From the NCBI RefSeq assembly GCF_001999325.1, contig NZ_MVAR01000009.1, forward strand, positions 15,127 to 59,823: a stretch of DNA of 44,697 bases. The letters run 5' to 3'. The translations under genes and the position numbers were made by a program. How positions within the stretch are numbered: the first letter of the stretch is position 1; each line of letters starts with the position of its first letter. The stretch is from Thioalkalivibrio versutus. GTDB lineage: Bacteria; Pseudomonadota; Gammaproteobacteria; Ectothiorhodospirales; Ectothiorhodospiraceae. Positions 418 to 41,560 of this stretch are shown here, piece by piece. The notes beneath the pieces were generated by a model. That model was given only the letters and a program-made list of their open reading frames with translations. It was not told the origin of the DNA and did no database searches.

Positions 418-459
418 CAAGGCCGGCGCATGAAGCGCTGCGCAGCCGGGGATGATTGC

Positions 460-1209: not shown

Positions 1210-1212
1210 GCC

Positions 1213-1799: not shown

Positions 1800-1815
1800 T
1801 ACCAACGAAGTATCC

Positions 1816-1834
1816 GCCACGGTCTCACCGTGGC
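1816..1834 (+). promoter_or_regulatory. Perfect 8-bp hairpin in the hemP-receptor gap
   Basis: The sequence gccacggt-ctc-accgtggc is a perfect inverted repeat with a 3-base loop, 16 bases after the hemP stop and 112 bases before the receptor start. No T-run follows, so it does not look like an intrinsic terminator. It could stabilise an mRNA end, mark a processing site or act as a regulatory stem. Its placement in the leader of a receptor gene just after hemP is suggestive, but its function is unknown. Confidence 0.5.
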
Positions 1835-1945
1835 ACCTGCCAGCCAGGGGAGTCCCTCCCTCAGCCAGCCTCCAATCCGTCACCGATCCGCGGCGCCCCG
1901 GCGTCCGTGGCGGTGTTGATGCTGGCCAACTCAAGGGAGACAACC

Positions 1946-4171
1946 ATGGCTCGAAACCATCTGGCAAGCCGCCGAATCGCACGCCCCGCCGACCACTCGC
2001 GCAACTCCGGGGCATGGAGGCGACGTGCCGTCGTACTCGCAATTGCCGGGGCCGTGGGGATTCCCGCGCTGCATGCCGACGAGGCTGCCCCGACCGCCGA
2101 ATCCGGAGCCGAGGCCCGGCTGGCGCCGGTGCAAATCCTCGGAGACGTGACCGCGACGCAGCGGCTGCCCGGCTCGGCGGCCGTGGTGGGTCGCGAACAG
2201 CTGGAAACCGAAGGGACCACGGACATCCACCAGGCGCTCAAGACCGTGCCCGGCGTGTATGTGCAGGAGGAAGACGGGGCGGGTCTGCGCCCCAATATCG
2301 GGATCCGTGCAGCGCCTCCGGGCCGCAGCAGCAAGGTGACCCTGATGGAGGACAACGTGCTGAGTGCCCCGGCACCGTATTCCAATCCGGCGGCCTACTA
2401 TTTCCCGACCACGATGCGGATCAACGAGATCGAAGTGCTCAAGGGGGCCCCGCTGTTGCGCCACGGGCCGCAGACCACCGGGGGTGTGATCAATCTGGTA
2501 TCCACGCCCATCCCCCGGGAACGCGAAGGTTCCATCGAGACGGTGGTGAACGATCGGGGCGGCATCGACGTGCACGCGATGTTCGGGGATCGCTCCGGTG
2601 ACTGGAGCTACATGGTCGAGACCGTCCAGCGCAACGGGGCCGGCTTCAAGGATATCGATCGCAGCCACCGCGATACCGGCTACGACATCCAGGACTATGT
2701 CGGCAAGCTGCGCTGGGATGGCGAGCGCCAGAGCATCGAGGCCAAGGTCCAGTACTCGGAGGAAACGTCCAACGAGACCTATCTTGGCCTGACCGACGCG
2801 GATTTCGCGCGTGATCCCAATCGGCGCTATGGCCTGTCCGGGATCGATCAGATGGAGAACGACCACCTCGGTTTGAGCGTCACGCACGACATCGACTGGT
2901 CCGAGCGCGTGCGCATGGCCACCACGTTGTACCGCAACGAATTCGCCCGAAACTGGTTCAAGCTGGGCGGGGGTGGCGCGTTCATTGACGACGCCAATCG
3001 GGGCGATGCGACCGCGCACCGAATCCTCCGGGGCGAAGACGATGTGGCGGGGCTGACCTACCGCAACAACAACCGCGAATATGTCTCCGAGGGTATCCAG
3101 ACCGAACTGGGCATGGACTTCGGGGACCACTGGCTGCGTGCGGGTGTCCGTTATCACCAGGACGAGATGGACCGCTTCCAGCCGGACGACATCTACGATC
3201 AGGTGAACGGTTCCCTCGTCTACCAGGAGACCATCCAGCCGACGGGCAGCAACAACCGGTTCGAGGATGCGCAGGCCTGGAGCTTCTGGCTCGCCGACGA
3301 GTGGTACGTCAGTGACCGGCTGACCGCGAACCTGCTGCTGCGCTACGAGGATGTCGAGACCTCGCGGACCCAGTATGCCGATACGCAGCGAAACGTCGTG
3401 GATTCGCGGCGCTCCAATTCGAGCAGCGTCTGGCTGCCGGGGGCCTCGCTGACCTACGATTTCACGGATCGCTGGCAACTGCTGGCGGGGGTTCACCGTG
3501 GGTTTGCTCCCCTGGGGGGCGGTGCGACCGAAGACCAGGCCCCGGAAACCAGCACGAACTGGGAACTGGGCGCCCGGTATCAGGGCGACAATGCGTTTGT
3601 CGAGGCGATTGGTTTCTACAGCGATTTCTCCGACTTCGTGCAGAACTGCTCGGTGGCGACGCCCTGCTCGGACGGTTCCACCTCCGGGACCTTCACGACC
3701 GGGGAGGCGGTCATCTCCGGACTGGAGTTGCGGGCCTCCACGTGGGTGGACCTGGGATCCTTCCACGCGCCCCTGGAGGCCAGCTACACCTACACCAGCG
3801 CCAAGGCCAGCGCGGACAACCCGGCCTCGGGGCAGCAAGAGGGCGATCGCTTGCAGGGGATCCCGCGCCACCAGTTCAGCCTTCGAGGGGGCCTCGAGCA
3901 CGCGAGTGGCTGGAACCACTACGCGGTCGTGAAGTACATCGACGCGACCTGCAATAGCGATGGCTGTAACCGGAGCGCGGGCGCATTCGACCGCACCGAG
4001 TCGCTGACGACGATCGACCTGGTGAGCCAGTATCCCCTGGGCAGGAACACCGACCTCTATGCCCGGGTGAGCAATGTGCTGGATGAGCAACAAATCATCG
4101 CCCGCTCCCCGGACGGTGCCCGGCCCAACGAACCGCGTACGTTCTCGGTCGGGTTGACGCACCGGTTCTGA
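1946..4171 (+). CDS. TonB-dependent outer-membrane receptor, FecA-like
   Basis: Ligand-gated outer-membrane receptor powered by TonB/ExbB/ExbD. The frame is open further upstream, but the ATG at 1946 follows an AAGGGAGA ribosome site and gives a signal peptide: RRR at about 25-27, a hydrophobic core, cleavage near ALHA-D at residue 44. The plug domain (about 55-180) contains GIRAAPPGRSSKVTLMEDN and LRHGPQTTGGVINLV, which resemble FecA most. The rest is a 22-strand barrel type ending in THRF with a terminal Phe. Length is 741 residues. There is no N-terminal STN signalling domain, so it should not signal to an anti-sigma factor. No FRAP/NPNL heme-receptor motif was found despite the neighbouring hemP, so a ferric siderophore or citrate-like ligand is as likely as hemin. 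Confidence 0.9.
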   Translation: MARNHLASRRIARPADHSRNSGAWRRRAVVLAIAGAVGIPALHADEAAPTAESGAEARLAPVQILGDVTATQRLPGSAAVVGREQLETEGTTDIHQALKTVPGVYVQEEDGAGLRPNIGIRAAPPGRSSKVTLMEDNVLSAPAPYSNPAAYYFPTTMRINEIEVLKGAPLLRHGPQTTGGVINLVSTPIPREREGSIETVVNDRGGIDVHAMFGDRSGDWSYMVETVQRNGAGFKDIDRSHRDTGYDIQDYVGKLRWDGERQSIEAKVQYSEETSNETYLGLTDADFARDPNRRYGLSGIDQMENDHLGLSVTHDIDWSERVRMATTLYRNEFARNWFKLGGGGAFIDDANRGDATAHRILRGEDDVAGLTYRNNNREYVSEGIQTELGMDFGDHWLRAGVRYHQDEMDRFQPDDIYDQVNGSLVYQETIQPTGSNNRFEDAQAWSFWLADEWYVSDRLTANLLLRYEDVETSRTQYADTQRNVVDSRRSNSSSVWLPGASLTYDFTDRWQLLAGVHRGFAPLGGGATEDQAPETSTNWELGARYQGDNAFVEAIGFYSDFSDFVQNCSVATPCSDGSTSGTFTTGEAVISGLELRASTWVDLGSFHAPLEASYTYTSAKASADNPASGQQEGDRLQGIPRHQFSLRGGLEHASGWNHYAVVKYIDATCNSDGCNRSAGAFDRTESLTTIDLVSQYPLGRNTDLYARVSNVLDEQQIIARSPDGARPNEPRTFSVGLTHRF

Positions 4172-28394: not shown

Positions 28395-28790
28395 TCAGAG
28401 GGCGGAGATCTGCGCCCGGATCTGGTTGTCCAGGTTCTGGATCCAGTTGTTGTAGTTCGGGTGGATATTGCCGTCCGCGTAGTTCAGGTTGGTGCTGTCC
28501 TTGTAGCGAATGCTGTATTCACCCGCCGCATAGGGGATCTCCACTTCGGCGACGTGGTCGCGCAGCGCAAGTCGCCCTTCGAGTAGCCCCGGTTCCACTT
28601 CTTCCATGCGCCAGCCTAGCGCCGTTCCGGCGGTGCGGATGGCGCGTTCCATCTGTTCGGCGCTGGGGCGTTCACCCGCAACATCGGTGACCGTGGTATC
28701 GCTGACGTTGTGCACGGGGACCGTGCCGCGGCAGCCGGCCAGCGCGATCAGGCTGGCAAACAAGATGACCAGCAACGTCCTGGTATTCAT
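28395..28790 (-). CDS. Conserved lipoprotein of unknown function, 131 aa
   Basis: The ATG at 28790 follows AGAAGGA. The signal peptide NTRTLLVILFASLIALAGC has lipobox L-A-G-C. The mature domain ends in YSIRYKDSTNLNY and IHPNYNNWIQNLDNQI. I recall these phrases as recurring in small lipoproteins of gammaproteobacteria, but no function is assigned. It lies 91 bases downstream of the polyene operon's glycosyltransferase on the same strand and might be read through, though it has its own ribosome site and is not a known part of such clusters. Confidence 0.75.
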   Translation of the reverse strand: MNTRTLLVILFASLIALAGCRGTVPVHNVSDTTVTDVAGERPSAEQMERAIRTAGTALGWRMEEVEPGLLEGRLALRDHVAEVEIPYAAGEYSIRYKDSTNLNYADGNIHPNYNNWIQNLDNQIRAQISAL

Positions 28791-28881: not shown

Positions 28882-29607
28882 TCAGCGCAACAGGCCCCGC
28901 GAGCGCAACAGCCCCAGCGGGCGCATTCCGCGGCGCAGCAGGTGGCCGGCGACCATGGCGATGATGCGCAGGGTGTCCGCGGTCGCGCGGTAATGGCTGG
29001 GGCGGTGGTTCTCCGGGTAGATACAGCGTACCGGGACCACCCGCACCGGGAATCCCAGCCGCTCGGCGACGATTAGGGCCTCGCTTTCGAACACGAAGCC
29101 GCGCGCCCGGTGATGACGCAGCTCGAGGCGTCGCAATAGCGCCGCGGGATACAGGCGGAACCCCGACTGCGAATCCTGCAGCGGTTGCCCCGAGGCCCAG
29201 GCAATCCAGAAGTCCGCCATGCGGTTGCCGAACAGGCGTAGCGGCGGGGTATGTTCGCGGCCCTTGAGTCGGGCCCCCAGGATCAGCCGCTCGGGGGTCT
29301 CGCGCCAGGCGGCGATGAGGGCCGGGATCTCCGTGGTGTCGTGCTGGCCGTCGGCGTCCAGGGTCACCACGGCATCGGCCCCGGTGGCCAGGGCATGCTG
29401 CATCCCGGCCCACAACGCGGCCGCCTTGCCACCATTCTCGGGCTGCCGAAGGACCTCCGCCTGGCCCTCGATCAGGCTTGCGGTCGCATCCTCGGAGCCG
29501 TCGTCCACCACGATCACCCGGTCCACGTGGGCGCGGGCGCCAGTGACGACCTCTTCGATGGTGGCCGCCTCGTTGTGGGCCGGGATCAGGGCAACGACGT
29601 GGCTCAT
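28882..29607 (-). CDS. Family 2 glycosyltransferase of the aryl-polyene cluster
   Basis: 241 residues, GT-A fold: VVALIPAHNEAATIEEVV at the N-terminus, IVVDDGSEDAT, the PENGGKAAALWAG loop and the TLDADGQHD metal-binding motif. The C-terminus has DSQSGFRLYP and PSHYRATADTLRIIA, as in glycosyltransferases of aryl-polyene clusters. In those clusters the GT is often fused to an LpxL-type acyltransferase; here the two are separate, at opposite ends of the operon. It likely puts a sugar on the polyene or a lipid carrier. ATG at 29607, 7 bases after the ketoreductase stop. Last gene of the operon. Confidence 0.85.
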   Translation of the reverse strand: MSHVVALIPAHNEAATIEEVVTGARAHVDRVIVVDDGSEDATASLIEGQAEVLRQPENGGKAAALWAGMQHALATGADAVVTLDADGQHDTTEIPALIAAWRETPERLILGARLKGREHTPPLRLFGNRMADFWIAWASGQPLQDSQSGFRLYPAALLRRLELRHHRARGFVFESEALIVAERLGFPVRVVPVRCIYPENHRPSHYRATADTLRIIAMVAGHLLRRGMRPLGLLRSRGLLR

Positions 29608-29614
29608 GACGGGA

Positions 29615-30337
29615 TCAGGCGAGGGCACCATTGACGCCGATGACCTGACCGGACACGTAGCTGGCGCCCTCGCTGGCGAGGAAGCCGACCACACTCGCGA
29701 CCTCCGCGGGCTGGCCGGCACGGCGCATGGGTACGACGCTGCGGATGCGGTCGGCATCGAAGCTCGAATCGCTCATCGGGCTTTCGATGATCCCGGGGGC
29801 GACCGCGTTGGCGGTAATCCCGCGCGAGGCGACCTCCTGGGCCAGCGAGCGAATGGCACCATGGAGCCCGGCCTTGGCCGCTGCGTAGTTGGCCTGGCCG
29901 CGATTGCCGATCTGCCCGGCGACGGAGGAGATCGCCACGACCCGGCCCCAGCGGGTGGTGATCATCGGCAGCAGTAGTGGCTGGGTGACGTTGTAGAACC
30001 CGTTCAGTCCGACGTCGATCGGTCGGTCCCACTGCTCGCGGCGCATTCCGGCCAGCGGCGCATCGTCGTGGATGCCTGCGTTATGCACCAGGATCTGCAC
30101 CGGTTGTTCGGCCGCCAGGGGCTCCAGGGCCTCGCGGCAGGCCCCCTCGTCGGTGATGTCGAACACCAGCACGCGGGCCTGGCCGCCGTCGGCGCGGATG
30201 GCCGCGGCTGTTGCTTCGGCCGCGTCGGCATTGCGATGGGCGTGCAGGACCACCTCATGGCCAGCCGCGGCCAGGGCTTGGGCAATGGCGGCGCCGATGG
30301 CACCGCTGGCTCCGGTAATCAGGGCGCGTGCAGTCAC
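29615..30337 (-). CDS. FabG-type 3-oxoacyl-ACP reductase (ApeQ-like)
   Basis: Short-chain dehydrogenase of 240 residues that reduces the beta-keto group of the growing ACP-bound chain with NADPH. The TGASGAIG nucleotide motif is at 8-15, NAG at 86-88, catalytic Ser near 137 and Tyr151-AAA-Lys155. The C-terminal YVSGQVIGVNGAL is FabG-like. The start overlaps the stop of the ApeP-like dehydratase by 4 bases. It matches the ApeP-ApeQ order of known aryl-polyene clusters. A general fatty-acid FabG is possible by sequence alone, but the operon context argues against it. Confidence 0.9.
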   Translation of the reverse strand: MTARALITGASGAIGAAIAQALAAAGHEVVLHAHRNADAAEATAAAIRADGGQARVLVFDITDEGACREALEPLAAEQPVQILVHNAGIHDDAPLAGMRREQWDRPIDVGLNGFYNVTQPLLLPMITTRWGRVVAISSVAGQIGNRGQANYAAAKAGLHGAIRSLAQEVASRGITANAVAPGIIESPMSDSSFDADRIRSVVPMRRAGQPAEVASVVGFLASEGASYVSGQVIGVNGALA

Positions 30338-30795
30338 GGGGTCTTTTCCTCGTCGGCGGGTTGCAGTATCACCGTCGCGCGGGCGCTCAGCACCGGCCGG
30401 TCACCGGCGGTGACCCGCAGGTCGTAGATCGAGCTGTGGGTATCCGACAGGATGCGTTCGGCGTGGATCTCGAGCGGGTCGTCGAGGCCGTCGAGACGTT
30501 GGACCCGCAGTTGTAGGTTGCGCACGGCCGCCAGGTAGCCGGCCCGGGGCGGGCCGCCATCCGCCAGCAGCGCCCCGTGCACGGCCATGCCCTGGGCGCC
30601 GTATTCCAGTGCCGCCAGGGCATGCAGGCCGCCTTCCCCGCGCAGCGGGTTGGCCGGATCCCGGTGGCTGTCGGCACGACAGTGGATGGCGTCGTCGGAC
30701 CAGGCCTCTACCGAATCCAGCAGGCACATCGCCCCGGCGTGCGGCAGCAGCCGGCAGATGGCGTCGTGATCCAGGGTTTCGGGTCGGGATGGCAT
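30334..30795 (-). CDS. ApeP-like 3-hydroxyacyl-ACP dehydratase
   Basis: 153-residue hotdog-fold protein. The N-terminus has LLPHAGAMCLLDSVEAW with His19 in the catalytic position, followed by HALAALEYGAQGMAVHGAL. This PHAGAMCLLD signature marks the ApeP group, which works with an ApeI-type partner to form the conjugated double bonds of aryl polyenes. It lies 30 bases after the chain-length-factor-like gene and overlaps the reductase by 4 bases. Confidence 0.9.
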   Translation of the reverse strand: MPSRPETLDHDAICRLLPHAGAMCLLDSVEAWSDDAIHCRADSHRDPANPLRGEGGLHALAALEYGAQGMAVHGALLADGGPPRAGYLAAVRNLQLRVQRLDGLDDPLEIHAERILSDTHSSIYDLRVTAGDRPVLSARATVILQPADEEKTP

Positions 30796-30825
30796 GCGCG
30801 GGATCTTCCTGATCCAAGCGATTGT

Positions 30826-31605
30826 TCAGGGCTCGATGCGGATGCTCAGCGACCGGCCCAACGGGGCGTCAAGCGTAACATGGCCGGCCGTGCCCCGGGC
30901 CAGTTGCTCCAGCAGGGGCAGGGCGCGTGCCGCCGGGTTGCTCTCGCGCAGGGCCTCCAGCTCGTCAGCCACGCAGCGATCGGCGGTGGCGGGTCCCTTG
31001 AGGTCCATCTGCAGCCGCCAGGTGGCGCCCTCCACCGGCCCCAGGCGCAGGGCGACCGCGAACGCATGGTGGATCGGGCGCACGCGGATGAATGTCTCCA
31101 TCGACGGTACGTCGTAGCAGGTGAGCAGCACCTCGCCACCCTCGCACTGTTGCAGCGTCGCGGCCTCCAGCAAGCCGGCGGCCACCGTGGCGTTGTAGCC
31201 GGATACGGCGGTCGCCGGGGCGGGGTTGCGGGTGGCGATCGACCAGTTACCGGCCGGGGCGTTGTGCACCGAATTGTGGAACTGGACCGGCGAGACCACC
31301 GGCTCCGGCTGGGTGAGCGCGTCGCAGATGCGATCGATGATGTCCATGTCGCCGGAGGACGAGGCGAACACGCTGCGCAGTTGGCTGCGATCGCTGTCGG
31401 TTGTGGCCTCTTCCGCCACCTTCAGGGCCAGGCGAATCGTGGTCGTGGTGCGTCGACGCTCGTTGGCGGGGAGCAGCCGCACGGGTGGGATATTGATCGC
31501 GTCACCCGCCAGAGGCGCCGTGCCGGCGAGGATGGCGCGGGCGGTCTCGAAGTCGTCCAGTCCCGGGCCCAGCAGTCCGACCGCATGCAGACCGATGGTG
31601 TTCAT
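30826..31605 (-). CDS. Chain-length-factor-like ketosynthase partner (ApeC type)
   Basis: 259 residues with the beta-ketoacyl synthase N-terminal-like fold: FASSSGDMDIIDRICDAL and VSPVQFHNSVHNAPAGNWSI are typical of the chain-length-factor family seen in aryl-polyene clusters. It lacks the TACSSS active-site Cys and both catalytic His, and is much shorter than a ketosynthase (about 400). It is therefore predicted to be a non-catalytic partner that sets chain length with the adjacent ketosynthase. Its ATG overlaps the ketosynthase stop (ATGA), which fits co-translation of a heterodimer. Confidence 0.85.
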   Translation of the reverse strand: MNTIGLHAVGLLGPGLDDFETARAILAGTAPLAGDAINIPPVRLLPANERRRTTTTIRLALKVAEEATTDSDRSQLRSVFASSSGDMDIIDRICDALTQPEPVVSPVQFHNSVHNAPAGNWSIATRNPAPATAVSGYNATVAAGLLEAATLQQCEGGEVLLTCYDVPSMETFIRVRPIHHAFAVALRLGPVEGATWRLQMDLKGPATADRCVADELEALRESNPAARALPLLEQLARGTAGHVTLDAPLGRSLSIRIEP

Positions 31606-32789
31606 TGCGGTGCCTCCAGCAGCAGGCTGCAGTTGTTTCCGCCGAACCCGAAGGCGTTGACCAGGACCCGCCGAACCGGGCGTTCCTCGGTCTCTGCCCG
31701 TGCATCCAGGCCCAGTTCCGGGTCCGGGTGCCCCAGCCCGGCGGTCGCCGGCACGAAGCCGCCGGCCAGGCTGGCCAGTGCCTGCGCGACCCCCACCGCG
31801 CCGGCAGCCCCGAGGGTATGCCCGGTCAGGCCCTTGCTGCCCACCGCGCGCGGGGTCGGGCCCAGGCGGTGGATCAGGGCGTGGGCCTCGGAACGGTCGT
31901 TGGCCGGGGTCGCGGTGGCATGCATCAGCACATAGTCGATCTCGTCGCCTTGCCGCCCTGCACGGTCCAGGGCTTGCTGTAGTGCCGTCGCGGCCCCCAG
32001 GCCTTCCGGGTGCGGGGCGGACATGTGGTGGGCATCGCTGGATTCGCCGTAACCGGTCAGCCGCGCGCCGTGGGCATTCGCGGAGGGGCGCTCCAGCAGG
32101 AAGAAGCCGGCGGCCTCGCCGATGGAGATCCCGGCCCGGTCGCGATCCAGCGGGGTGCAGGGCTGCGCGGCGACCAGCTGCAGGGCGTCGAAGCCGTACA
32201 GCGTCATGCCGCACAGGCTGTCGACGCCGCCGACCACGGCGGCGTCGCACAGTCCCGCCGCGATGTAGCGCCGGGCATCGGCAAAGACCTTGGCGCTGGA
32301 CGAGCAGGCCGTGGAGACCACCATGGCGGGGCCGGACAGGCCGAGGCGGGTGGCAACAAAGTCGGCCAGCGAGAACATGTTCTGGGTGTGCTGGTAGTCG
32401 TAGTCCGGTGGCAGGGCCCCGGTCTGCGGGTCACGCCGGTGGTACGCGGCCTCGGTGGCGGCGATCCCGGAAGTGCTGGTGCCCAGCAGTACGGCCACCC
32501 GGTCGGCCCCGTGGCGCTCCACTGCAGCCGCCACCGCCTCGGCGAAGCCGTCCTGGCGCAACCCCAGCTCGGCCAGCTGGTTGTTGCGACACAGGAACGG
32601 GGCCAGGGCGCCCTCGAGGGCGATGGCTTCCACACCCGGTACGCGGCCGACGTAGGTGTCCAGGTTGACGCGCTCCAGGTCGCAGGCACGCAGTCCGCTG
32701 GTGCCGCTGCGCAGGGCCTCGGCGTTGGCGGCGATCCCGGTGCCGGCGGCACTCGTCAGGGTGTGGGCAGTGATGACCAGGGGGTCCAT
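31602..32789 (-). CDS. Beta-ketoacyl-ACP synthase (ApeO-like)
   Basis: 395-residue condensing enzyme with a full Cys-His-His triad: STACSSS (Cys162), LMHATATPAND (His290) and GHTLGAAG (His324). SIGEAAGFFLLE and VNAFGFGGNN are further KS signatures. It would extend the polyene by malonyl-ACP condensation together with the adjacent chain-length-factor-like protein. It sits between exporter and dehydratase as in E. coli-type ape clusters, except that the chain-length partner follows directly. A 67-base gap separates it from the exporter gene, where E. coli-type clusters carry the apeN lipoprotein gene; none is present. Confidence 0.93.
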   Translation of the reverse strand: MDPLVITAHTLTSAAGTGIAANAEALRSGTSGLRACDLERVNLDTYVGRVPGVEAIALEGALAPFLCRNNQLAELGLRQDGFAEAVAAAVERHGADRVAVLLGTSTSGIAATEAAYHRRDPQTGALPPDYDYQHTQNMFSLADFVATRLGLSGPAMVVSTACSSSAKVFADARRYIAAGLCDAAVVGGVDSLCGMTLYGFDALQLVAAQPCTPLDRDRAGISIGEAAGFFLLERPSANAHGARLTGYGESSDAHHMSAPHPEGLGAATALQQALDRAGRQGDEIDYVLMHATATPANDRSEAHALIHRLGPTPRAVGSKGLTGHTLGAAGAVGVAQALASLAGGFVPATAGLGHPDPELGLDARAETEERPVRRVLVNAFGFGGNNCSLLLEAPQ

Positions 32790-32856
32790 GGACGGGCGTA
32801 TCTGCGGGTTGTGGCCGGAGGGGGTTCCGGGTGGATTGGGCCAGTTCGGCGTTGCT

Positions 32857-35262
32857 TCAGGCAGTTTGCCGGCGGCTGGCCTCGGGGGCCAGCAGGGCCG
32901 CTGCGAGGAAGGAAAATACCACGCCCAGCACTACCGTGAGGCCCATGGCCTGCAAGACCGGAAGACTGGAAAGGGCCAACAGACCGAACACCACCAGCGT
33001 GGACAGTGCGCACACGCTGACCGAGCGCAGGTTGCGCAGGCGCGCCGCGGCATCCCGCAGCGGGCGGCTGAAGAACACGGCGTAATCCAGGCACAGCCCG
33101 GTGATCAGCAGCATCGCGATCAGGTGGAACAGCGACAGCTGGATGCCCAGCAGGATCAGTGTGGCCAGGGTCAGCAGCAACCCGGTGCCCACCGCGGTGA
33201 GGATGCGCAGGCTGCGTCCCGGCGCCCGGGTGACGGCCAGCAGCAGGAGGGCCACCGCGACCATTCCCAGCGCGAGCCGGTGCAGGGCCTCGACGCGAAA
33301 GCCGATCACCAGTTCTTCGGAGGCGCGGAAGAAGTCGATGTGGCGGATACCCACCCCGTCCAGTTCCGGCACGCTGGCCAGAGGTGCGTCTTCGGCCCAG
33401 CGGGTCAGGGCATCGGGGTCATGGACGCCCTGCAAGCGCACCCAGGCGATCCAGCCAGTGCCGTCATCGCGGGGCTGGAGCAGGGGTTCCAGGGCATTGC
33501 GCAGCGGCCCGTCGGGAAGGCCCTCGGGTTCCAGCAGGTCTTGCTGACGGGCCGTCTGGATGTCGTTCACGAAGGGCTCGAAGGCCCCGTCGCGGAACCC
33601 CAACCCTGCGCCCGCCACCTCCAGGCGTTCGCGCAGGGTATCGGGTTCCGGCAACGCGGCTTGACGCTCGCGCTGCAGTGCCCGGCTGGGCAGGACGTTC
33701 GCGGCATGGCCGAAGCCGTCCAGGGCCCCGGTCTCGCGCAGGGCCTCCAGGCCCGGTGTCAGGGCCTCGCTGGCGCGCAGGGCCTGTTCCGGCGTGTCGG
33801 CGCTGACCAGCAGGGCATGGCGGACGTCCGGCAGCCCCAGGGCGCTGCGCAGGTCCTGGTCGAGCGCAATCTGGTCCTCCGGTACCGGGTGCAGGGCGGA
33901 CAGGCGATCCTCCCAGGGGAAGGGGTCGGCAGTCGCGACCACGGCGATCGCGGCCAGGGCCAGCAGGGCGAGGCCCCAGCGCGCGATGGCGGGGGGCTGG
34001 GCGAGACCCGTGGGCAGGGGCAGGCGCAGCGGCGGCAGGCCCTCGCGCTGCAAGCGGGTGGGGACCAGCGTTGGCAGGATCCAGCGGGTGACCACGGCGG
34101 CCACGGCCACGCCAGTCAATACGAACAGCCCGAGCTGGGCCATGCCGGAGAACCCGGTCATTGCCATCAGGGCATACACCAGTACCGTGCTGCCGGCTCC
34201 CAGGGCAATGGCGGGCCACAGCTCGCGCGCGACCTGCGGGAGGCGCCCGCCGTCGGCCCGTCCGTCGCCGGACGGTTCACCATCGCCTCGTTGCGCATGG
34301 GCGAACAGGTGCAGCGGGTAGTCGAGGGCGATGCCCAGCACGGTGATGCCGAAGGCCAGCGCGATCCCGTGCAGATGTCCGAAGACCAGCGTAACCACGG
34401 CCGCGGCGATCAGGATGCCGCTGGCCAGTGGCACGGCCGCCAGCCAGACCGGGTGCGGATGGCGGAACACCGCCAGCAGCAGGAGCGCCAGCGCGACGCT
34501 GGCCCCCGCGGTGATCCAGGTGACCTCGCCGCGGATGGTGGCGCGGGAGTCCACCGCGATCACCGCCGGGCCGGCAATCTGCAGCTGAAGATCCGGTTCG
34601 GCGAGGTCGCTGAAGGCCGCGTGCGTGCGTTCGATCAGGGCGGCCTGGGCATCCAGGTCCATGCCGTCGGCCGTGCTCCGCAGCACCAGCAGGGCCCGTC
34701 CCCGGTCGGGGGTGACCCAGACGCCTTCGGCGCCGGTCGTCGCCTGGCCACCGGTGGCGGCGAGCTGCTCCAGGACGACCCGGACCTCCGCGGTGGGGTC
34801 ACGCGGGATCAGTTCCCGTGGCAGTTCCGGGACGGCGCTGGCGAGGTCGTCGCGGCGGGCCTCCAGGTGTTCGCTCAGGCGGTCCTGGCTGAAGTGTTCG
34901 GCATCGACCCGGGGGCTTAGCAGGTAGCGATGCTCGATCAGGAAATCCAGCGCCGGGTCGTCGGGGTCGAGGCGGCCGTTGTGGATGCCGGCAACATCGG
35001 GGGCATCGTCCAGGGCCGCGACCAGTGCATCACTGGCTGCCGCCCGCTCGCGGGCCTCGCCACCGGCGATGGCCAGCAGCAGCATGCGTCCGGCGGGGCC
35101 GGCCCCGGGGTCCAGGGCGATCCCGTCCGTGCTGACCGGGTCCGGGGCAAAGCCCTGCAGGTCGGTGACCAGTTCGCCGCGCAGGGTCAGCGTCAGCGTG
35201 GCCAGGAGCAGGGCGGCCAGCCAGAGCGTCAGGGCAACGCGGGAGGGGTGGCGGCGCAGCAA
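32857..35262 (-). CDS. MMPL/RND-type exporter (ApeM-like)
   Basis: 801-residue inner-membrane protein with two repeated halves, each a membrane helix, a large periplasmic domain and five more helices (12 in total). The first half includes LGIALDYPLHLFAHAQR and the second LLITGLCLDYAVFFSRPLRD, the D-Y-Asp-relay-like helices of the MMPL/RND superfamily. In aryl-polyene clusters this exporter is thought to move the finished lipid-linked polyene towards the outer membrane. It starts 3 bases after the LolA-like gene. The carboxyl end is short and cytoplasmic. Confidence 0.92.
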   Translation of the reverse strand: MLRRHPSRVALTLWLAALLLATLTLTLRGELVTDLQGFAPDPVSTDGIALDPGAGPAGRMLLLAIAGGEARERAAASDALVAALDDAPDVAGIHNGRLDPDDPALDFLIEHRYLLSPRVDAEHFSQDRLSEHLEARRDDLASAVPELPRELIPRDPTAEVRVVLEQLAATGGQATTGAEGVWVTPDRGRALLVLRSTADGMDLDAQAALIERTHAAFSDLAEPDLQLQIAGPAVIAVDSRATIRGEVTWITAGASVALALLLLAVFRHPHPVWLAAVPLASGILIAAAVVTLVFGHLHGIALAFGITVLGIALDYPLHLFAHAQRGDGEPSGDGRADGGRLPQVARELWPAIALGAGSTVLVYALMAMTGFSGMAQLGLFVLTGVAVAAVVTRWILPTLVPTRLQREGLPPLRLPLPTGLAQPPAIARWGLALLALAAIAVVATADPFPWEDRLSALHPVPEDQIALDQDLRSALGLPDVRHALLVSADTPEQALRASEALTPGLEALRETGALDGFGHAANVLPSRALQRERQAALPEPDTLRERLEVAGAGLGFRDGAFEPFVNDIQTARQQDLLEPEGLPDGPLRNALEPLLQPRDDGTGWIAWVRLQGVHDPDALTRWAEDAPLASVPELDGVGIRHIDFFRASEELVIGFRVEALHRLALGMVAVALLLLAVTRAPGRSLRILTAVGTGLLLTLATLILLGIQLSLFHLIAMLLITGLCLDYAVFFSRPLRDAAARLRNLRSVSVCALSTLVVFGLLALSSLPVLQAMGLTVVLGVVFSFLAAALLAPEASRRQTA

Positions 35263-35265
35263 GGA

Positions 35266-35883
35266 CTAGTCCGCGTACTGTGGCGGTTCGAAGCGCATGC
35301 GACTGTGGTGGCCGCCAGCCTCGATGATGACCAGTTCGTGCAGTTCGCCGCCGGCGCCTCTCAGGGTCAGTTCGGGGACCATGCGGCGCAGGGCACGATC
35401 CCGCGGGACGAGCGCGAGGGTCCAGGCGTCGATGTCCCCCGTGACGTCGATCTCGAAGTCGCTCTCCAGGGTCTCGCGGTCGCCGGTCAGCAGGGCGCGG
35501 AACAACCCGGCCAGGGTGGCCAGGGCGGGCTGTTCGTTGAGGTCGATCTCGCGGCTGGAGCCGCGACGTTCCAGGGTGAGGGTGTCACCCTCGATGTGCA
35601 CGGTCTCGCCACGCGGGCCGTCGACCTGGCGGGTAAGGGTATCGGGGGGCTCGAAGGCCAGGGAGCCCGAGCGGGTCTCCGGGAATTCCAGCATCGGGTC
35701 GTCGCGGCGCTCTTCGAACGCGAGGGTCGCCGCGCGCTCGGTGGTCAGGGCTTCGAGCAAGGCGCCGAGGGTGTCGTTGGCCAGGGCCGAAACAGGGACG
35801 AGAAGACCCAAGGCCAGGATCAGCGTGATGCCGGACTGGCGGATACGCGGGCCAAAGCCGTGGCCTCGCCTATTTGGATGCAT
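35266..35883 (-). CDS. LolA-like periplasmic carrier (ApeL-like)
   Basis: The start at ATG 35883 (HPNRRGHG) gives 205 residues with signal peptide GITLILALGLLVPVSALA and cleavage before ND. An in-frame ATG at 35898 is also possible. The mature domain has an eleven-strand LolA-like pattern: LAFEERRDDPMLEFPETRSG, then SGSLAFEPPDTLTRQV and VHIEGDTLTLERRG. Outer-membrane lipoprotein carrier-related proteins of this kind occur in aryl-polyene clusters beside the MMPL exporter. It overlaps the acyltransferase end by 14 bases. Confidence 0.85.
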   Translation of the reverse strand: MHPNRRGHGFGPRIRQSGITLILALGLLVPVSALANDTLGALLEALTTERAATLAFEERRDDPMLEFPETRSGSLAFEPPDTLTRQVDGPRGETVHIEGDTLTLERRGSSREIDLNEQPALATLAGLFRALLTGDRETLESDFEIDVTGDIDAWTLALVPRDRALRRMVPELTLRGAGGELHELVIIEAGGHHSRMRFEPPQYAD

Positions 35884-36769
35884 CGTCCCAGAAGTCATAG
35901 AAATTGAACCAGTTGTAAGGGGCCTCGCGCACCCGCGCCTCGAGGCGATCGGCGTAGCGCTGTACCCAGTGTGCCAGGGCTGCATCGCGCTGCCCGCGTG
36001 GGGCCTCGATGGTCTCGGCGAAGGGTTCAAAGACGATATCGTAGCGGTTGCCCCCGCGATAGAGCCCGAAGCACAGGATCACCGGGACCTTGAGCACCGC
36101 GGCCAGCAGCAGCGGCCCTTGCGGGAACAGCGCGGTGTCGCCGAGGAAGTTGCAGGCGACCATCTTGTCACTCTCGGCGACGCGGTCGCCCAGCGTTGCG
36201 ATCAGCTCGCCGCGATCCAGGCACTCGCGGGCCTGGATCAGGGTCTCGGTACGCCCCAGCGGGATCACCGACGCGGCGACCTCGGGGTTCAGGGCCTCCA
36301 GGACCTGGGTGATGCTCTGGTTGTGGTCGTTGTACATCAGGACCTTGACCGGAAAGTCGTACTTGCCTACCGCCAGCGCCCGCAAGGCCTCGAAGCTGCC
36401 CAGGTGCGCGCCCAGCAGGATCGCGCCGCGGCCACTGTCCACGTGTTCCAGGAAGGTCTCGCGGTTGTGTACCTGGATGTCCAGACAGGCGTCCTTGCCG
36501 GCGAGCAGGAAGACGCGGTCGAGGATGACCGCCGCAAAGCAGTGCAGGTGCCGGGCCAAATCGCCCAGGCGCGGTTCGCGCCCCAGGACCCGGCGCAGGT
36601 AGTTGCGACTGTGGCGGCGCGACTGCGGTGCGAACAGCAGGAAGTAGGCCGTGATCGGGTAGAGCAGGGTGCGGCTGGCGCGGCGCCCGAGATTCAGGGC
36701 CACCCAGAGGATGATGCGCAGGGCCAGGGGCGAGCCCCGTTCCGCCTGCTGAAACCAGCCGCGGCTCAT
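35870..36769 (-). CDS. LpxL/HtrB-family acyltransferase
   Basis: 299 residues. N-terminal amphipathic/membrane region (ALRIILWVALNLGRRASRTL), then GAHLGSFEALRAL with the H-X4-E catalytic motif (His122, Glu127), and further family blocks GDRVAESDKMVACNFLGD and ALFPQGPLLLAAVLKVPVIL. It transfers an acyl group; in this setting probably an aryl-polyene or fatty acyl chain onto a lipid or sugar acceptor. In many aryl-polyene clusters this domain is fused to the GT2 enzyme (ApeJ type); here they are separate. The start overlaps the dehydratase stop by 4 bases. Confidence 0.9.
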   Translation of the reverse strand: MSRGWFQQAERGSPLALRIILWVALNLGRRASRTLLYPITAYFLLFAPQSRRHSRNYLRRVLGREPRLGDLARHLHCFAAVILDRVFLLAGKDACLDIQVHNRETFLEHVDSGRGAILLGAHLGSFEALRALAVGKYDFPVKVLMYNDHNQSITQVLEALNPEVAASVIPLGRTETLIQARECLDRGELIATLGDRVAESDKMVACNFLGDTALFPQGPLLLAAVLKVPVILCFGLYRGGNRYDIVFEPFAETIEAPRGQRDAALAHWVQRYADRLEARVREAPYNWFNFYDFWDDASK

Positions 36770-37098
36770 GCGTCCGCGGTGTCGTGAGTCGTGATCAGTT
36801 GGCCGGCACAGAAGGTGACGGGGGCCTCGCCATCCGCCGCGAGTACGCGGAAGGCCTGACGGCCGCCGTGTCCGGGCGGATCGATCTCGACCCGGAATGC
36901 CGTCTCGGGTCCCAGGGGTGCAAGGAACTTGACCTGGGGGAGGGCCTCGACCGGCCCGAGACCGTGGGCGTGGGCCACCGCCGCGACCTGGTCGAGGATG
37001 ACCACGCCGGGCACCACCGGGTGACCGGGGAAGTGCCCGGGCAGGGATGGGTGACCGGCCCCGATGCGGCGAATGGTGGACTGGATGAGGGTCTGCAT
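36766..37098 (-). CDS. ApeI-like hotdog dehydratase
   Basis: 110 residues with HPSLPGHFPGHPVVPGVVIL, the FabA/FabZ signature with catalytic His22. Shorter than FabZ (about 150), as usual for ApeI. The predicted partner is the ApeP-like protein encoded at the other end of the operon; the two are known to form a heteromer in other aryl-polyene systems. 13 bases after the AMP-ligase gene. Confidence 0.9.
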   Translation of the reverse strand: MQTLIQSTIRRIGAGHPSLPGHFPGHPVVPGVVILDQVAAVAHAHGLGPVEALPQVKFLAPLGPETAFRVEIDPPGHGGRQAFRVLAADGEAPVTFCAGQLITTHDTADA

Positions 37099-37111
37099 CA
37101 GGGCGGGCGGC

Positions 37112-38461
37112 TCAGGCGCACTGGCCGTGATGGGCGAGCAGGTCCAGCAGGATCTGGCGTGGCAGCTTGCCGGTGGCCGAACGCGGCAGATGATCGACGC
37201 GGACCAGCGGGCGCGGCAGGAACAGCGGGTCCATGCACTCGGCCAGTGCAGCCTGGATTTCGGCCGCGCTGCGATCCGGTGCCACCACCAGGGCGGCCAG
37301 CCGGGTCACGCCGTGCGTGTCCTGATCGGTGCCCGGCGGAATGAACACCCCGTCGAGCACCCCGGGGATTGCGTTGAGTCGGCGGTTGAGATCGGCCAGG
37401 GAGGCGCGTTTGCCGGCGATGTTCAGTTGATCGGCCAGGCGCCCCTCCATGCGGAAGTGGCTGACGTCCCGGACCTCGATGTGGTCCGGAAGCGGGACCG
37501 CTTCGGGGTGCTGGGGTCCCTGGACGCGCGCGAGGCCGTCGTCATTGCGATGCAGTTGCACCCCGGGGTAGGCCGTCCAGTCGGATTCGCGGGTGGTGCG
37601 GCGGGTTGCAATGGCGCCGGCCTCGGTGCAACCGTAGATCTCGTCCAGGCGGCAGCCGAACACCCGTTCGGCCTGGCCGGCCGTTTCCGGGTCCAGGGGC
37701 GCGGTCGCGCAGAGGATGCGTTCCGGGGTCGGCCACTCCAGCCCCGCACGCAGGCAGGCGCTCAGATGAAAAGGTGTGGTTACCAGAACGGCCGGGGTGC
37801 AGTCCGCCAGTGCGGCACGGATGTCCTCGGGGTAGAACGGGCGTCCGGCGAGCAGGGTGGCGTGCCCCAGCAGGGCGTACAGGAGCGTGGACTCCAGGCC
37901 GTACATGTGCTGCGGCGGGACCGTGCCGATCAGGGTCGGTCCGGAGCCATCCACCAGATCGAAGCATTCCAGCGCCTGCCAGGTGACAGCATGCAGGGCC
38001 TCCCAGGTCCGCGCATGGGCCGTGGGGGTGCCGGTGCTGCCGGAGGAGAAGGCCAGAACGGCGGTCTGGTCGGCGGGGATCTCGGGGATCGCCCCGGTGG
38101 CCTCGCCGGCTGCGCCGCAGGCGGACACCCGCAGGATCGGGATTGCGATCTCGGCATCCGGGCCGTCGACCAGGGCAGGCGCGTCCGGGTATTGGCTGGC
38201 GATCTCGGCCAGGGTGGTGCTCCCGCGGTTCGGGGGCAGCAGATTGACCTGGCCGCGCAGCAGAATGGCGGCAAAGGCGACCGCGAAGTGGTAGCGGTCC
38301 TGGCACAGGTTGAAGGCCGCCCGCGCCTGCGGCAGGCGTGCGGCCAGCGCCTGCGCGTCGGCGAGGAAGGCGGCGCGCGAGATCGCCCGATCGCCGATGC
38401 GCGCCAGCGGGGCGGGCGTGTCGGCGATCAGTGGTCGAGTGACCTGCGGGGTATCTGTCAC
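37112..38461 (-). CDS. Acyl/aryl-AMP ligase (ApeH-like)
   Basis: 449 residues, ANL superfamily. It would activate the aryl starter acid and load it on the ACP. The P-loop reads LAFSSGSTGTPTAHARTW, with Thr where most members have Lys. Next are a TVPPQHMYGLESTLLYAL segment, EIYGCTEAGAIATR, and near the C-terminus RSATGKLPRQILLDLL with the catalytic Lys. The GTG start at 38461 overlaps the COG4648 stop by 4 bases (GTGA). Short for the family (ape members are about 450). The substrate may be 4-hydroxybenzoate or a coumarate, which the sequence does not reveal. Confidence 0.88.
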   Translation of the reverse strand: MTDTPQVTRPLIADTPAPLARIGDRAISRAAFLADAQALAARLPQARAAFNLCQDRYHFAVAFAAILLRGQVNLLPPNRGSTTLAEIASQYPDAPALVDGPDAEIAIPILRVSACGAAGEATGAIPEIPADQTAVLAFSSGSTGTPTAHARTWEALHAVTWQALECFDLVDGSGPTLIGTVPPQHMYGLESTLLYALLGHATLLAGRPFYPEDIRAALADCTPAVLVTTPFHLSACLRAGLEWPTPERILCATAPLDPETAGQAERVFGCRLDEIYGCTEAGAIATRRTTRESDWTAYPGVQLHRNDDGLARVQGPQHPEAVPLPDHIEVRDVSHFRMEGRLADQLNIAGKRASLADLNRRLNAIPGVLDGVFIPPGTDQDTHGVTRLAALVVAPDRSAAEIQAALAECMDPLFLPRPLVRVDHLPRSATGKLPRQILLDLLAHHGQCA

Positions 38462-39072
38462 GGGTGCCTCAGCATCCGGTGGTGATCGACCCGCGCCAGC
38501 TCCATCAGATAGGCCAGGAAGCCGTTGTGCGGCTCGTCGCGCAGGAGCCAGCGGCGCAGCGGATACTCCAGCAGGAACAGGCCGGCCAGAAAAAGGTAGT
38601 TGATCCCGTTGGCAAACAGGGCCCAGGTGGTGGCGGTGGCGAACAGCGCCAGCCAGGCGGACACGATTGCCAGTCCGGCACACAGCAGGGCCCAGGTAAT
38701 GGTGAGGTTGCGGGTGTAGCGGTGCACCGCGGCGGTGTCGGAGGCCCCCATGGCCAGGGCGTAGCGCGTGATCAGCGGGGTAGAGTCGCTGCGCAACGAA
38801 CGCGCGAACAGAAGCGACAAGAGCCCCATGATGAGCACCGGCAAAGCATACAGCAGCCAGGTGGCCATCCCGCCGAGGAGCAACAGGCTTATGCCCACGG
38901 CCAGGCTCGCGGCCAGCACGCCACGTCCGGTGGTGGCCAGCGAGGCCCATGCAGCCACCAGGATCAGGGTGGCCAGGATCGCCAGCGGCACTAGCGGGAT
39001 CTCGAAGGTCACGCCGAGGACGACCGCGACCGGATAACTCAGGGCCACGCAGGCGGCGAGTGGGGTGTTCAC
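38458..39072 (-). CDS. COG4648-type membrane protein (ApeG-like)
   Basis: 204 residues with five to six membrane helices, for example LAACVALSYPVAVVLGV, LAVGISLLLLGGMATWLLYA and WALFANGINYLFLAGLFLLEY. The conserved tail FLLEYPLRRW is typical of ApeG. Its function in aryl-polyene clusters is unknown but it is a core member. It overlaps both neighbours by 4 bases. Confidence 0.85.
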   Translation of the reverse strand: MNTPLAACVALSYPVAVVLGVTFEIPLVPLAILATLILVAAWASLATTGRGVLAASLAVGISLLLLGGMATWLLYALPVLIMGLLSLLFARSLRSDSTPLITRYALAMGASDTAAVHRYTRNLTITWALLCAGLAIVSAWLALFATATTWALFANGINYLFLAGLFLLEYPLRRWLLRDEPHNGFLAYLMELARVDHHRMLRHP

Positions 39073-39341
39073 GACGTGGCTCGGTTGGCCTCGATATGGG
39101 CGCTCAGCGCCCGCAAGGACGCGAAGATCTCGCGGTTGTTTTCGTCGTCCGACCGGATCTGGACGCCGTAGGCGCGGGAGATGGCCAGGGCCAGCTCCAG
39201 GGCATCGATGGAATCCAGCCCCAGTCCTTCACGGAACAGCGCATCTTCCGGCTCGATCTCCTCCGGCGCGACCTCCTCCAGATTAAGGCTGTCCACGATC
39301 AGTTGAGCGACTTCCTGTTCGAACGCTGTTTGTGATGGCAC
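39069..39341 (-). CDS. Acyl carrier protein (ApeF-like)
   Basis: 90 residues. GLDSIDALELALA contains the phosphopantetheine Ser44. The tail YGVQIRSDDENNREIFASL is typical of the ACP at the head of aryl-polyene clusters. The GTG start at 39341 follows a GGGGGAA ribosome site. First gene of the operon. E. coli-type clusters have two ACPs (apeE, apeF); only this one is present here. Confidence 0.92.
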   Translation of the reverse strand: MPSQTAFEQEVAQLIVDSLNLEEVAPEEIEPEDALFREGLGLDSIDALELALAISRAYGVQIRSDDENNREIFASLRALSAHIEANRATS

Positions 39342-39516: not shown

Positions 39517-40875
39517 TTGATACAACCGGGACAGGAAGCCGTAACCGACGGGCGCTGCCAGGTGGTGGTGATCGGAGGAGGCCCCGCCGGCTCCACGGTG
39601 GCCTCCCGACTGGCGCAGAAGGGGCGCGACGTGGTGCTGCTGGAAAAGGCCCGGCATCCACGCTTCCACATCGGCGAATCCCTGCTGCCGATGAATATGC
39701 CGTTGTTCGAGGAACTGGGCGTGGCCGAGGCCATCGCGGCAATCGGCATCCCCAAGCACGGGGCCGAGTTCACCATCCCCGAGGCGCCCGACGCGCCGCG
39801 AACCTATTACTTCGAGCGCGCCCTGAACGACGACACACCCGCGTCGGCATGCGAGGTGCGGCGTTCGGAGTTCGACCACCTGCTGCTGGAAAACAGCGCC
39901 CGCCTGGGTGTGCGGGTGCTGGAAGAGGTCACCGTCTTCGATGTCGCCCTGGCCGATCCCGCCAAGGGCGGGACCCAGCAGGTCACCGCGCGCGATGCTT
40001 CCGGCAACACGCTGGAGTTCGAGGCCGATTTCGTGGTCGACGCCTCCGGTCGCGATACCTTCCTGGCGCGCCGTCTGGACCTGAAGGCGCGCAACCCGGA
40101 ACACAACAGCGCCGCGATCTTCGGGCACTTCAACAACGTGCCGCGGCGTGCCGGGCGCGATGCCGGCAACATCAGTATCTACTGGTTCCAGCACGGCTGG
40201 ATCTGGATGATCCCGTTGCGCGACGGGGCGATGAGCGTGGGCGCGGTCTGTTTTCCCGAATACCTGAAGACGCGCAAGACCAAGCCCGAGACGTTCCTGT
40301 GGGACACGCTGAAGCTCTGCCCGCCGGCCTTCGAGCGCATGCAGGGCGCGGAGCTGGCTGGCCCGGTCAACGCCACCGGCAATTTCTCCTACCGCTCCAG
40401 TCAGGCCCACGGCCCGGGTTATCTGCTGGTCGGCGATGCGTTCACCTTTGTCGACCCGGTGTTCTCCAGCGGGGTCTATATCGCGATGTCGGGGGGCTTC
40501 CGCGCCGCCGATGCGGTGGATCGCTGCCTGGAGCATCCGGCGCGCTCCGCACGCTATCTGCGTGCCTTTGAGCGCGACGTGCGCCGTGGCGTCCGCCGTT
40601 TCTCCTGGTTGATCTACCGCTTCAACAGCCCGGTGATGCGCAAGCTGTTCATGGGTCCGCGCAATACCTTCGGGATGGAGCAGGCGGTGATCTCGCTGCT
40701 GGCCGGGGATGTCTACCGCAATACCCGTGTGCAGTGGTCCCTGCGCGCCTTCAAGACGGTGTACTACGTGCAGATGGCGCTGAACCTGCCGCGGGCCCTG
40801 GCCTTCTGGGCGCGGCGCCGGCGCAACGCGCGGCTGCACTTCACCGGCGGCACCACGCCCGAAGACGAGGCCTGA
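39517..40875 (+). CDS. FAD-dependent halogenase-like flavoprotein
   Basis: 452 residues. The FAD-binding VVVIGGGPAGSTVASRLAQK is near residue 15, followed by HIGESLLPMN and PKHGAEF. The latter has a Lys in the region of the catalytic Lys of flavin-dependent halogenases. W-I-W-M-I-P at 228-233 fits the WxWxIP motif of that family. VGDAFTFVDPVFSSGVYIA is the second FAD motif. The TTG start at 39517 is preferred because AAGCGGAGA lies 8 bases upstream; GTG 39451 is an alternative. Halogenase-like genes occur in xanthomonadin and flexirubin clusters. A non-halogenating reductase or hydroxylase of the same fold remains possible. Confidence 0.8.
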   Translation: MIQPGQEAVTDGRCQVVVIGGGPAGSTVASRLAQKGRDVVLLEKARHPRFHIGESLLPMNMPLFEELGVAEAIAAIGIPKHGAEFTIPEAPDAPRTYYFERALNDDTPASACEVRRSEFDHLLLENSARLGVRVLEEVTVFDVALADPAKGGTQQVTARDASGNTLEFEADFVVDASGRDTFLARRLDLKARNPEHNSAAIFGHFNNVPRRAGRDAGNISIYWFQHGWIWMIPLRDGAMSVGAVCFPEYLKTRKTKPETFLWDTLKLCPPAFERMQGAELAGPVNATGNFSYRSSQAHGPGYLLVGDAFTFVDPVFSSGVYIAMSGGFRAADAVDRCLEHPARSARYLRAFERDVRRGVRRFSWLIYRFNSPVMRKLFMGPRNTFGMEQAVISLLAGDVYRNTRVQWSLRAFKTVYYVQMALNLPRALAFWARRRRNARLHFTGGTTPEDEA

Positions 40876-40885
40876 GAAGGCTCCC

Positions 40886-41560
40886 GTGGGCGAGGTGCGC
40901 GTCGGACTGGGTCGCATCGGGCCGGACGGCCTGGCGACCTTTGCGCTGTCGAATCTGATCATCCTGGCCACCGGCGGCTTGTCCTGGCTGGCGCTGTGGC
41001 TCTACACCGTGCACTGGTCGCGGCGGCGGCGCTGCCCCGGGCGCGGGGACTGCATCCTGGTGCTGGGGCAGCAGCTGGAGTCGGGGGCGCCCGGTCCGGG
41101 CTACCGCCTGCGCCTGCTGCGCGCCGTGCGTCTGGCGCGCCGGAATCCCGATGCCCGGATCCTGGTGCTGGGTGGGCAGACCTCCCCCGGTGCTCCCAGC
41201 GAGGCCGCCGCGGGCGCGGCCCTTCTGCAACACCACGGGATCGCGGCGACGCGCATCCGTACCGAAGACGCCTCGCGGCATACGCTGGAGAATCTGCGCA
41301 ATGCGCGCGATCTGCTGACGGAGACGGCGGAGGCCGGTGATGCGCCCCTAGTGCTGGTGACCAGTCGCTTCCATCTCGCCCGGGCGGTCGCCATCGCGCG
41401 CGGCATGGGATTGCGCGTCTGCCCCTGTCCGGCGGAGCCGGGCTCCACCGTATCGGCGGCGCGACTGGCGCGCGAATGCTGGATGCTGCACTGGTACCAC
41501 ACCGGCCGCACCCTGGCGCGCTTGATCCGCCACCGGGGCATGCTCGAACGGATCAGCTGA
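40886..41560 (+). CDS. YdcF/DUF218 family membrane protein
   Basis: 224 residues. An N-terminal membrane helix (LSNLIILATGGLSWLALWLY, about residues 21-42) and a DUF218 domain: LVLGQQLESGAPGPGYRLRL, ARILVLGGQT and LVTSRFHLARAVAIARGMG. The conserved Asp/Glu and Ser-Arg-Phe-His motifs are present. Members (ElyC, SanA, YdcF) act in envelope or peptidoglycan-lipid metabolism, with no firm reaction. GTG start at 40886, with AGAAGG upstream; 10 bases after the flavoprotein, so co-transcribed with it. Confidence 0.85.
   Translation: MGEVRVGLGRIGPDGLATFALSNLIILATGGLSWLALWLYTVHWSRRRRCPGRGDCILVLGQQLESGAPGPGYRLRLLRAVRLARRNPDARILVLGGQTSPGAPSEAAAGAALLQHHGIAATRIRTEDASRHTLENLRNARDLLTETAEAGDAPLVLVTSRFHLARAVAIARGMGLRVCPCPAEPGSTVSAARLARECWMLHWYHTGRTLARLIRHRGMLERIS

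Follow-up and report, generated by a model that had tools for sequence, protein, structure and literature searches.

The stretch of DNA considered here (the window, 44,697 nucleotides) belongs to the 2.83 Mb genome, in 58 contigs, of the soda-lake sulfur bacterium Thioalkalivibrio versutus, and carries on its minus strand, at 28,882-39,341, an operon of twelve consecutive open reading frames (ORFs), which is discussed in what follows as a candidate source of the yellow pigment natronochrome. A first-pass annotation had placed the twelve genes at the same position and had read them as an aryl-polyene pigment operon with a reduced gene set. For gene identities, the reference was the set of 18 proteins encoded by the ape cluster of E. 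coli CFT073 (c1186-c1204, 1.144-1.159 Mb), and the best match of each of the twelve proteins is an ape protein. The acyl carrier protein (ACP) and the ketosynthase (KS) also pass the cut-offs of the corresponding NCBIfam subfamilies, with 134.9 bits against 70 for NF006617 and 486.8 bits against 407 for NF006618, respectively. The best PDB matches of the KS are 6qsp_A and 7f28_B, and its half-size partner, the chain-length factor (CLF), finds just two matches in the PDB, the ApeC chains 7f28_A and 6qsp_B; 6QSP is named ApeO in PMC8358021. Among named relatives, the closest to the KS come from Thioalkalivibrio ALE31, ALJ16 and ALJ3 and from T. thiocyanoxidans ARh2 (79-88% identity over ~393 residues), and the next one stands at 59%.

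Because of its ApeO-type KS, its half-size ApeC CLF and its one-to-one map onto the E. coli ape genes, the operon is, judged by sequence, an aryl-polyene (APE) operon of the ape family. It is of the xanthomonadin/arcuflavin type and not of a reduced E. coli type: the characters of that type, namely a chorismatase for the supply of hydroxybenzoate, a halogenase gene accompanying the polyene genes and a pathway-linked methyltransferase, are all represented in this genome. The remaining components that characterise APE operons are also present, namely a dedicated ACP, an aryl-acid ligase, a reductase, two dehydratases (with a weak match in the case of ApeP), LolA-like and RND exporter proteins and transferases for lipid attachment. 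The earlier product class is therefore upheld at this level, as are the names given to G, H, I, L, M, O, P and Q, whose best matches are the ape genes of the same letter. The acyltransferase and the terminal GT2 gene, by contrast, correspond to the C- and N-terminal halves of ApeJ, and the CLF-like gene, taken at first for an insertion, is an ordinary ApeC, a protein with which ApeO is normally paired (PMC8253772, Table 1). Start and stop codons overlap by 4 base pairs (bp) at five of the eleven joints (ACP/G, G/H, I/acyltransferase, O/CLF and P/Q) and not at six, as had been counted. With 35,883 taken as the start of L, the acyltransferase and L genes overlap by 14 bp. The likely starts of ApeH, ApeC and GT2 are 38,461 (GTG), 31,605 and about 29,607, respectively. 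Two features flanking the operon had been overlooked, a homologue of ApeA and a halogenase-like gene. All these features are collected in Table 1.

Table 1. Genes of the aryl-polyene operon and its flanks, in coordinates of the window
Feature	Position	Strand	Basis of the assignment
ApeA-like small lipoprotein, directly downstream of operon	28395..28790	-	43% to E. coli ApeA over 122 aa, E 4e-31
GT2 glycosyltransferase	28882..29607	-	PF00535; 35% to N-terminal half of ApeJ, residues 8-226
ApeQ-like 3-ketoacyl-ACP reductase	29615..30337	-	46% to E. coli ApeQ; NCBIfam FabG over cut-off
ApeP-like dehydratase, weak match	30334..30795	-	Pfam ApeP-like 21.4 bits (cut-off 27); 38% over 58 aa; phmmer E. 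coli ApeP 7e-5
ApeC-like half-size chain-length factor, 259 aa	30826..31605	-	PF13723; 31% to ApeC; PDB matches 7f28_A, 6qsp_B
ApeO-like elongating ketosynthase	31602..32789	-	NF006618; PDB 6qsp_A, 7f28_B; TACSS, HATAT, GHTLGA motifs
ApeM-like RND/MMPL exporter	32857..35262	-	PF03176; 25% to ApeM over 735 aa
ApeL-like LolA-type chaperone, weak match	35266..35883 (Pfam search: 35266-35937)	-	PF19574 LolA_3; BLASTP 29 aa; phmmer ApeL E 1.8e-6
Lipid-A-type acyltransferase	35870..36769	-	PF03279; 32% to C-terminal half of ApeJ, residues 247-549
ApeI-like dehydratase	36766..37098	-	35% to ApeI over 84 aa; PF07977 FabA-like barely above cut-off
ApeH-like acyl-ACP ligase (putative aryl-acid loading)	37112..38461	-	PF00501; 27% to ApeH over 456 aligned positions
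ApeG-like membrane protein	38458..39072	-	26% to ApeG over 108 aa, E 1.7e-6; without Pfam match
Acyl carrier protein, nearest ApeE	39069..39341	-	NF006617; 43% to ApeE vs 33% ApeF; GLDSIDA phosphopantetheine site
Flavin-dependent halogenase-like protein, divergent from operon	39532..40875	+	PF04820 over cut-off; PDB matches; motifs
DUF218 protein, possible operon companion	40886..41560	+	PF02698; absent together with operon in genome G026

With the ApeA-like gene included, thirteen genes of the window match the E. coli CFT073 proteins ApeA, C, E, G, H, I, J (two genes), L, M, O, P and Q, whereas ApeB, D, K and N find no counterpart and F and R no separate one. Within the window, no match was obtained for ApeB or ApeK and only chance-level matches for ApeN and ApeD (E 0.28 and 0.50, respectively), and what ApeF and ApeR matched there was the ACP and the KS of the operon itself. 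Similarly, no match to ApeB, ApeK or ApeN at 1e-5 was found in 80 related loci, in a search that covered the window and these loci rather than the genome. The whole genome yielded neither a second Ape-type ACP nor an ApeR-like third ketosynthase, its PF00109 genes being two and its PF00550 matches four, which comprise the operon ACP, an AcpP-like protein, a fused protein and an ACP elsewhere. Of the genes listed as missing in the first-pass annotation, a second Ape-type ACP was thus not found genome-wide either. The methyltransferase lies at a second locus described below, and an ammonia-lyase does not belong to the E. coli 18-gene set, as given in PMC8253772; no PF00221 match was found anywhere in the genome. 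In E. coli, deletion of apeF leaves partial pigmentation and deletion of apeA full pigmentation (PMC8253772), and the absence of ApeR is no obstacle, since a fully elongated polyene is made in vitro by ApeO-ApeC alone (PMC8358021). Two further differences from the E. coli cluster, in which ApeJ is one fused protein, are the position of ApeC next to ApeO and the added halogenase gene. A small ACP lies away from the operon at G000:C1:72366-72488 (L093) and could serve as a malonyl carrier. It resembles exosortase-associated ACPs.

The divergent neighbour of the operon is related to flavin-dependent halogenases. Its six best PDB matches by bits (181.6 to 173.1) are all named halogenases or the alkylhalidase CmlS, with PltA in first place (181.6 bits), and include ChlB4 and the 3e1t halogenase. 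The protein carries the motif GGGPAG at the site for flavin adenine dinucleotide (FAD), together with WIWMIP (WxWxIP) and FVDPVFSSG (FxxPxxSxG), the last two of which we read as motifs of flavin-dependent halogenases, and the lysine of its IPKHG segment aligns in HMMER alignments with the carrier-protein halogenases PltA and 3e1t. PltA-like halogenases act on carrier-bound substrates, which suggests that a chlorination would take place on the ACP. The gene is located on the contig of the operon in eight genomes, and relatives with at least 47% identity occur in 22 of 80 KS-centred loci, two of which are from Thioalkalivibrio. Strains ALE31 and ALJ16 bear the halogenase, and ALJ3 and T. thiocyanoxidans ARh2 are without it. 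A third PF04820 match in the genome, of 23 bits, is located at C22:84453-84587.

Away from the window, the genome encodes two chorismatases of the FkbO/Hyg5 family, both over the cut-off of PF21168. The first is found beside mutM on contig C18 and belongs to a clade that occurs, in the tree, with and without the operon. The second, on contig C4, is 43% identical to the C18 copy and falls in a clade of 12 sequences, all of them from operon-bearing genomes, and in 12 of 12 genomes it is adjoined by a UbiE-like methyltransferase gene. Other origins of an aryl starter were rejected, as no match to PF04345 (UbiC) or PF00221 (ammonia-lyase) was found in the genome, and the mutM-adjacent universal chorismatase is the less likely pigment enzyme, given that it occurs with and without the operon. 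The possibility that the C4 methyltransferase is a plain UbiE was also rejected, because the UbiE cut-off is passed by another gene (264 bits) and not by the C4 gene (138.3 bits), and because all 24 operon-less genomes of at least 90% completeness lack a close copy. Genes missing from the window are therefore found elsewhere in the genome for starter supply and methylation, an outcome that the first-pass annotation itself had named as speaking against a reduced cluster. Two transposase-like reading frames are also present near the second locus (L087:3874-6382, contig C4), beyond the side of a relA/spoT-like gene.

The same two genes accompany polyene operons in other bacteria. Among the 80 KS-centred loci, which were taken from named genomes and many of which end at contig ends, 21 contain a chorismatase, 16 a relative of the methyltransferase (38-46% identity) and 13 both, and in three Competibacteraceae loci the two genes lie side by side with the same orientation, which is also their arrangement in Thioalkalivibrio. 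The methyltransferase, although not linked to the operon of the window, is tied to the pathway by its distribution and by this linkage in 16 of the 80 other loci. Since the chorismatase and the methyltransferase sit within polyene loci elsewhere, the second locus has the look of a fragment that has become separated from the cluster in its usual form.

The distribution of these genes was surveyed in 47 genomes of the family, of which 15 contain the KS, all in the genus of the window. The counts refer to the 38 genomes with a completeness of 90% or more, of which 14 carry the operon and 24 do not, and the Fisher values ignore relatedness. Orthologues of the methyltransferase (74-100% identity) are present in 14 of 14 operon-bearing genomes and in none of the other 24 (1e-10), leaving out weak matches of 33-36% in the operon-less G005 and G006. 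The corresponding figures are 12 of 14 and 0 of 24 for the second chorismatase (3e-8; the exceptions are G012 and G022) and 7 of 14 and 0 of 24 for the halogenase at 83% identity or more (3e-4; one match of 38% is left out). At least one chorismatase is present in all 38 genomes. In a MutM tree, a single clade (15 rows, support 100/100) unites the carriers with G026, without settling the place of G026 within it; the chorismatase tree puts G026 next to G020, which the MutM tree does not reproduce. G026, 100% complete and nested among the carriers, is an informative case, as it lacks the operon, the halogenase, the second chorismatase and the methyltransferase together. On its contig C2 (L220), no other gene separates ValS from the ApeA-like gene, after which come the usual downstream genes, and this indicates a clean absence of the stretch from DUF218 to GT2.

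Some observations concern the flanks. The ApeA-like lipoprotein, for which no Pfam family above cut-off and no match in a PHROGs search were found, is kept beside ValS in the operon-less G026 and may have a role of its own. The DUF218 gene was matched in nine of 76 operon loci from outside Thioalkalivibrio. In G012, the contig of the operon (C28, L151) differs from that of ValS (C7), and in G022 (C8, L152) no ValS gene lies within 2.5 kb beyond DUF218; in these two genomes, both of which are without the second chorismatase, the operon seems to occupy another site. At the other end of the window, at 430-4171, genes that by eye resemble MotA/TolQ/ExbB and TonB-dependent receptors form an uptake locus unrelated to the pigment operon.

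Natronochrome has been described as a yellow, membrane-bound and highly unsaturated pigment that strain K90mix makes in large amounts, and its genes were said in 2011 to "remain to be identified" (PMC3368412). The strain from which chloronatronochrome was reported, ALJ15, has since been assigned to T. nitratis. The genome that matches K90mix (G016) contains the operon with the ApeA-like gene (L153), the second chorismatase and the methyltransferase, and no halogenase match was found in it. The operon and its divergent neighbour are very probably the main biosynthetic locus of natronochrome and chloronatronochrome in Thioalkalivibrio, and the divergent gene, to judge from its relatives, probably adds the chlorine that distinguishes chloronatronochrome.

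A pathway can be proposed by analogy with the reconstituted APE systems (PMC8253772, PMC8358021) and with arcuflavin (PMC3949708); its gene identities come from sequence, and we infer every enzyme activity, the order of the steps and the product. The second chorismatase would convert chorismate to a hydroxybenzoate, most likely 3-hydroxybenzoate, which ApeH would load onto the ACP. ApeO-ApeC would then extend this starter with malonyl units, and each ketone would be reduced by ApeQ and dehydrated by ApeI/ApeP, to give a conjugated aryl polyene. The UbiE-like methyltransferase encoded beside the chorismatase would methylate the aryl end, and the halogenase would chlorinate it, probably while carrier-bound. 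Finally, GT2 and the acyltransferase (the split ApeJ) would join the polyene to a lipid, and ApeM and ApeL would carry the lipid-linked polyene to the outer membrane. With middling confidence, natronochrome can be regarded as the aryl polyene of a two-locus system, in which one product of a chorismatase duplication serves only the pigment (the ancestral copy had taken over the role of UbiC in making ubiquinone), the UbiE paralogue acts as the pigment methyltransferase and gain or loss of the halogenase decides which species make chloronatronochrome as well.

Several points weigh against this interpretation. The link to natronochrome draws on genus, colour, unsaturation and the chlorine in a name. 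With 233.5 and 203.3 bits, both chorismatases fall short of the 325 bits that the NCBIfam model requires, and the product of a chorismatase is not deducible from its sequence (PMC3949708). G012 and G022 have the operon and the methyltransferase without the second chorismatase, which is therefore not indispensable, and G033 (66% complete and outside the 38-genome set) has the operon and the halogenase with no chorismatase or methyltransferase match. In addition, the whole distribution reduces to roughly two independent changes within a single genus. A universal C18 chorismatase that feeds both ubiquinone and pigment, with the second copy in some other role, is conceivable though doubtful: G012 and G022 manage with the universal type only and XanB2 of Xanthomonas yields both acids (PMC3949708), but the second copy is confined to operon-bearing genomes, is absent from G026 and adjoins the pigment-linked methyltransferase in all 12 cases.

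That the operon makes an aryl-polyene lipid while natronochrome is a different compound from other genes, for example a carotenoid, appears quite unlikely, since the genome matching the producer K90mix carries the operon and the K90mix paper, in the parts drawn upon, describes a membrane-bound, highly unsaturated pigment without naming a gene for it (PMC3368412). The flavoprotein could instead be a hydroxylase or another monooxygenase, the chlorine having another source. Its best NCBIfam model, CmlS, reaches 200.9 of 900 bits, far below cut-off, with the monooxygenase model QhpG fairly near (157.7 of 240), its two motifs are of limited discriminating power, as they also occur in three operon-linked relatives of only 27-32% identity, and PDB 3nix, a named flavoprotein/dehydrogenase, matches at 144 bits. 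Nevertheless, PF04820 is passed, the halogenases and CmlS head the PDB matches where a peptidyl tryptophan dihydroxylase scores 28.7 bits, and halogenase genes are reported in xanthomonadin clusters (PMC3691225) and in the arc locus (PMC3949708), so that a monooxygenase is an unlikely identity. Hardly credible is the view with which the first-pass annotation had closed, namely that a reduced ape system with one ACP works here by a new mechanism unlike those characterised. No second Ape-type ACP and no ApeR turned up genome-wide, as that view would have it; against it, the starter and methyltransferase genes lie elsewhere and track the operon, ApeO-ApeC suffices for full elongation in vitro (PMC8358021), and one ACP with split loci has already been described for arc (PMC3949708).

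A pigment known since 2004, and whose genes were reported as unidentified in 2011, gains named candidate genes, and the existence of its chlorinated and unchlorinated forms, a chemical observation, turns into a prediction about one gene that extends over the sequenced species. If the assignment is right, gene deletion could also be used to test how soda-lake sulfur oxidisers are protected from oxidative stress and light. From a general perspective, co-distribution can reveal a small detached locus that completes a gene set which, within a single stretch of DNA, seems reduced. This member of the family, its assignment to natronochrome and the halogenase polymorphism were not found in the literature searched, and a printed link may exist elsewhere.

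The kind of system, on the other hand, is already known, because the arc loci of Azoarcus sp. BH72, responsible for arcuflavin, combine one ACP, a chorismatase, a halogenase, a methyltransferase and a two-locus split (PMC3949708), and a single ACP is also named for the Lysobacter cluster (PMC3691225); both use a supplied hydroxybenzoate starter. The arc loci share with Thioalkalivibrio the KS and its half-size KS-like partner, the reductase, two dehydratases, the ligase, LolA, the exporter, the glycosyltransferase and the acyltransferase, and they are likewise unlinked (PMC3949708). The arrangement differs in that Azoarcus divides the polyene genes themselves between its two loci and has a dialkylresorcinol cluster besides, whereas in Thioalkalivibrio the polyene core is a single operon from which only the chorismatase and the methyltransferase are detached. 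The xanthomonadin-type clusters of Xanthomonas and Lysobacter also contain a type II KS with an unusual partner, one named ACP, two dehydratases and a glycosyltransferase resembling dolichyl-phosphate-mannose synthase, with a halogenase gene in Xanthomonas and, as described in the same source, none in Lysobacter (PMC3691225). Xanthomonadins carry bromine, whereas the relative of natronochrome carries, by its name, chlorine.

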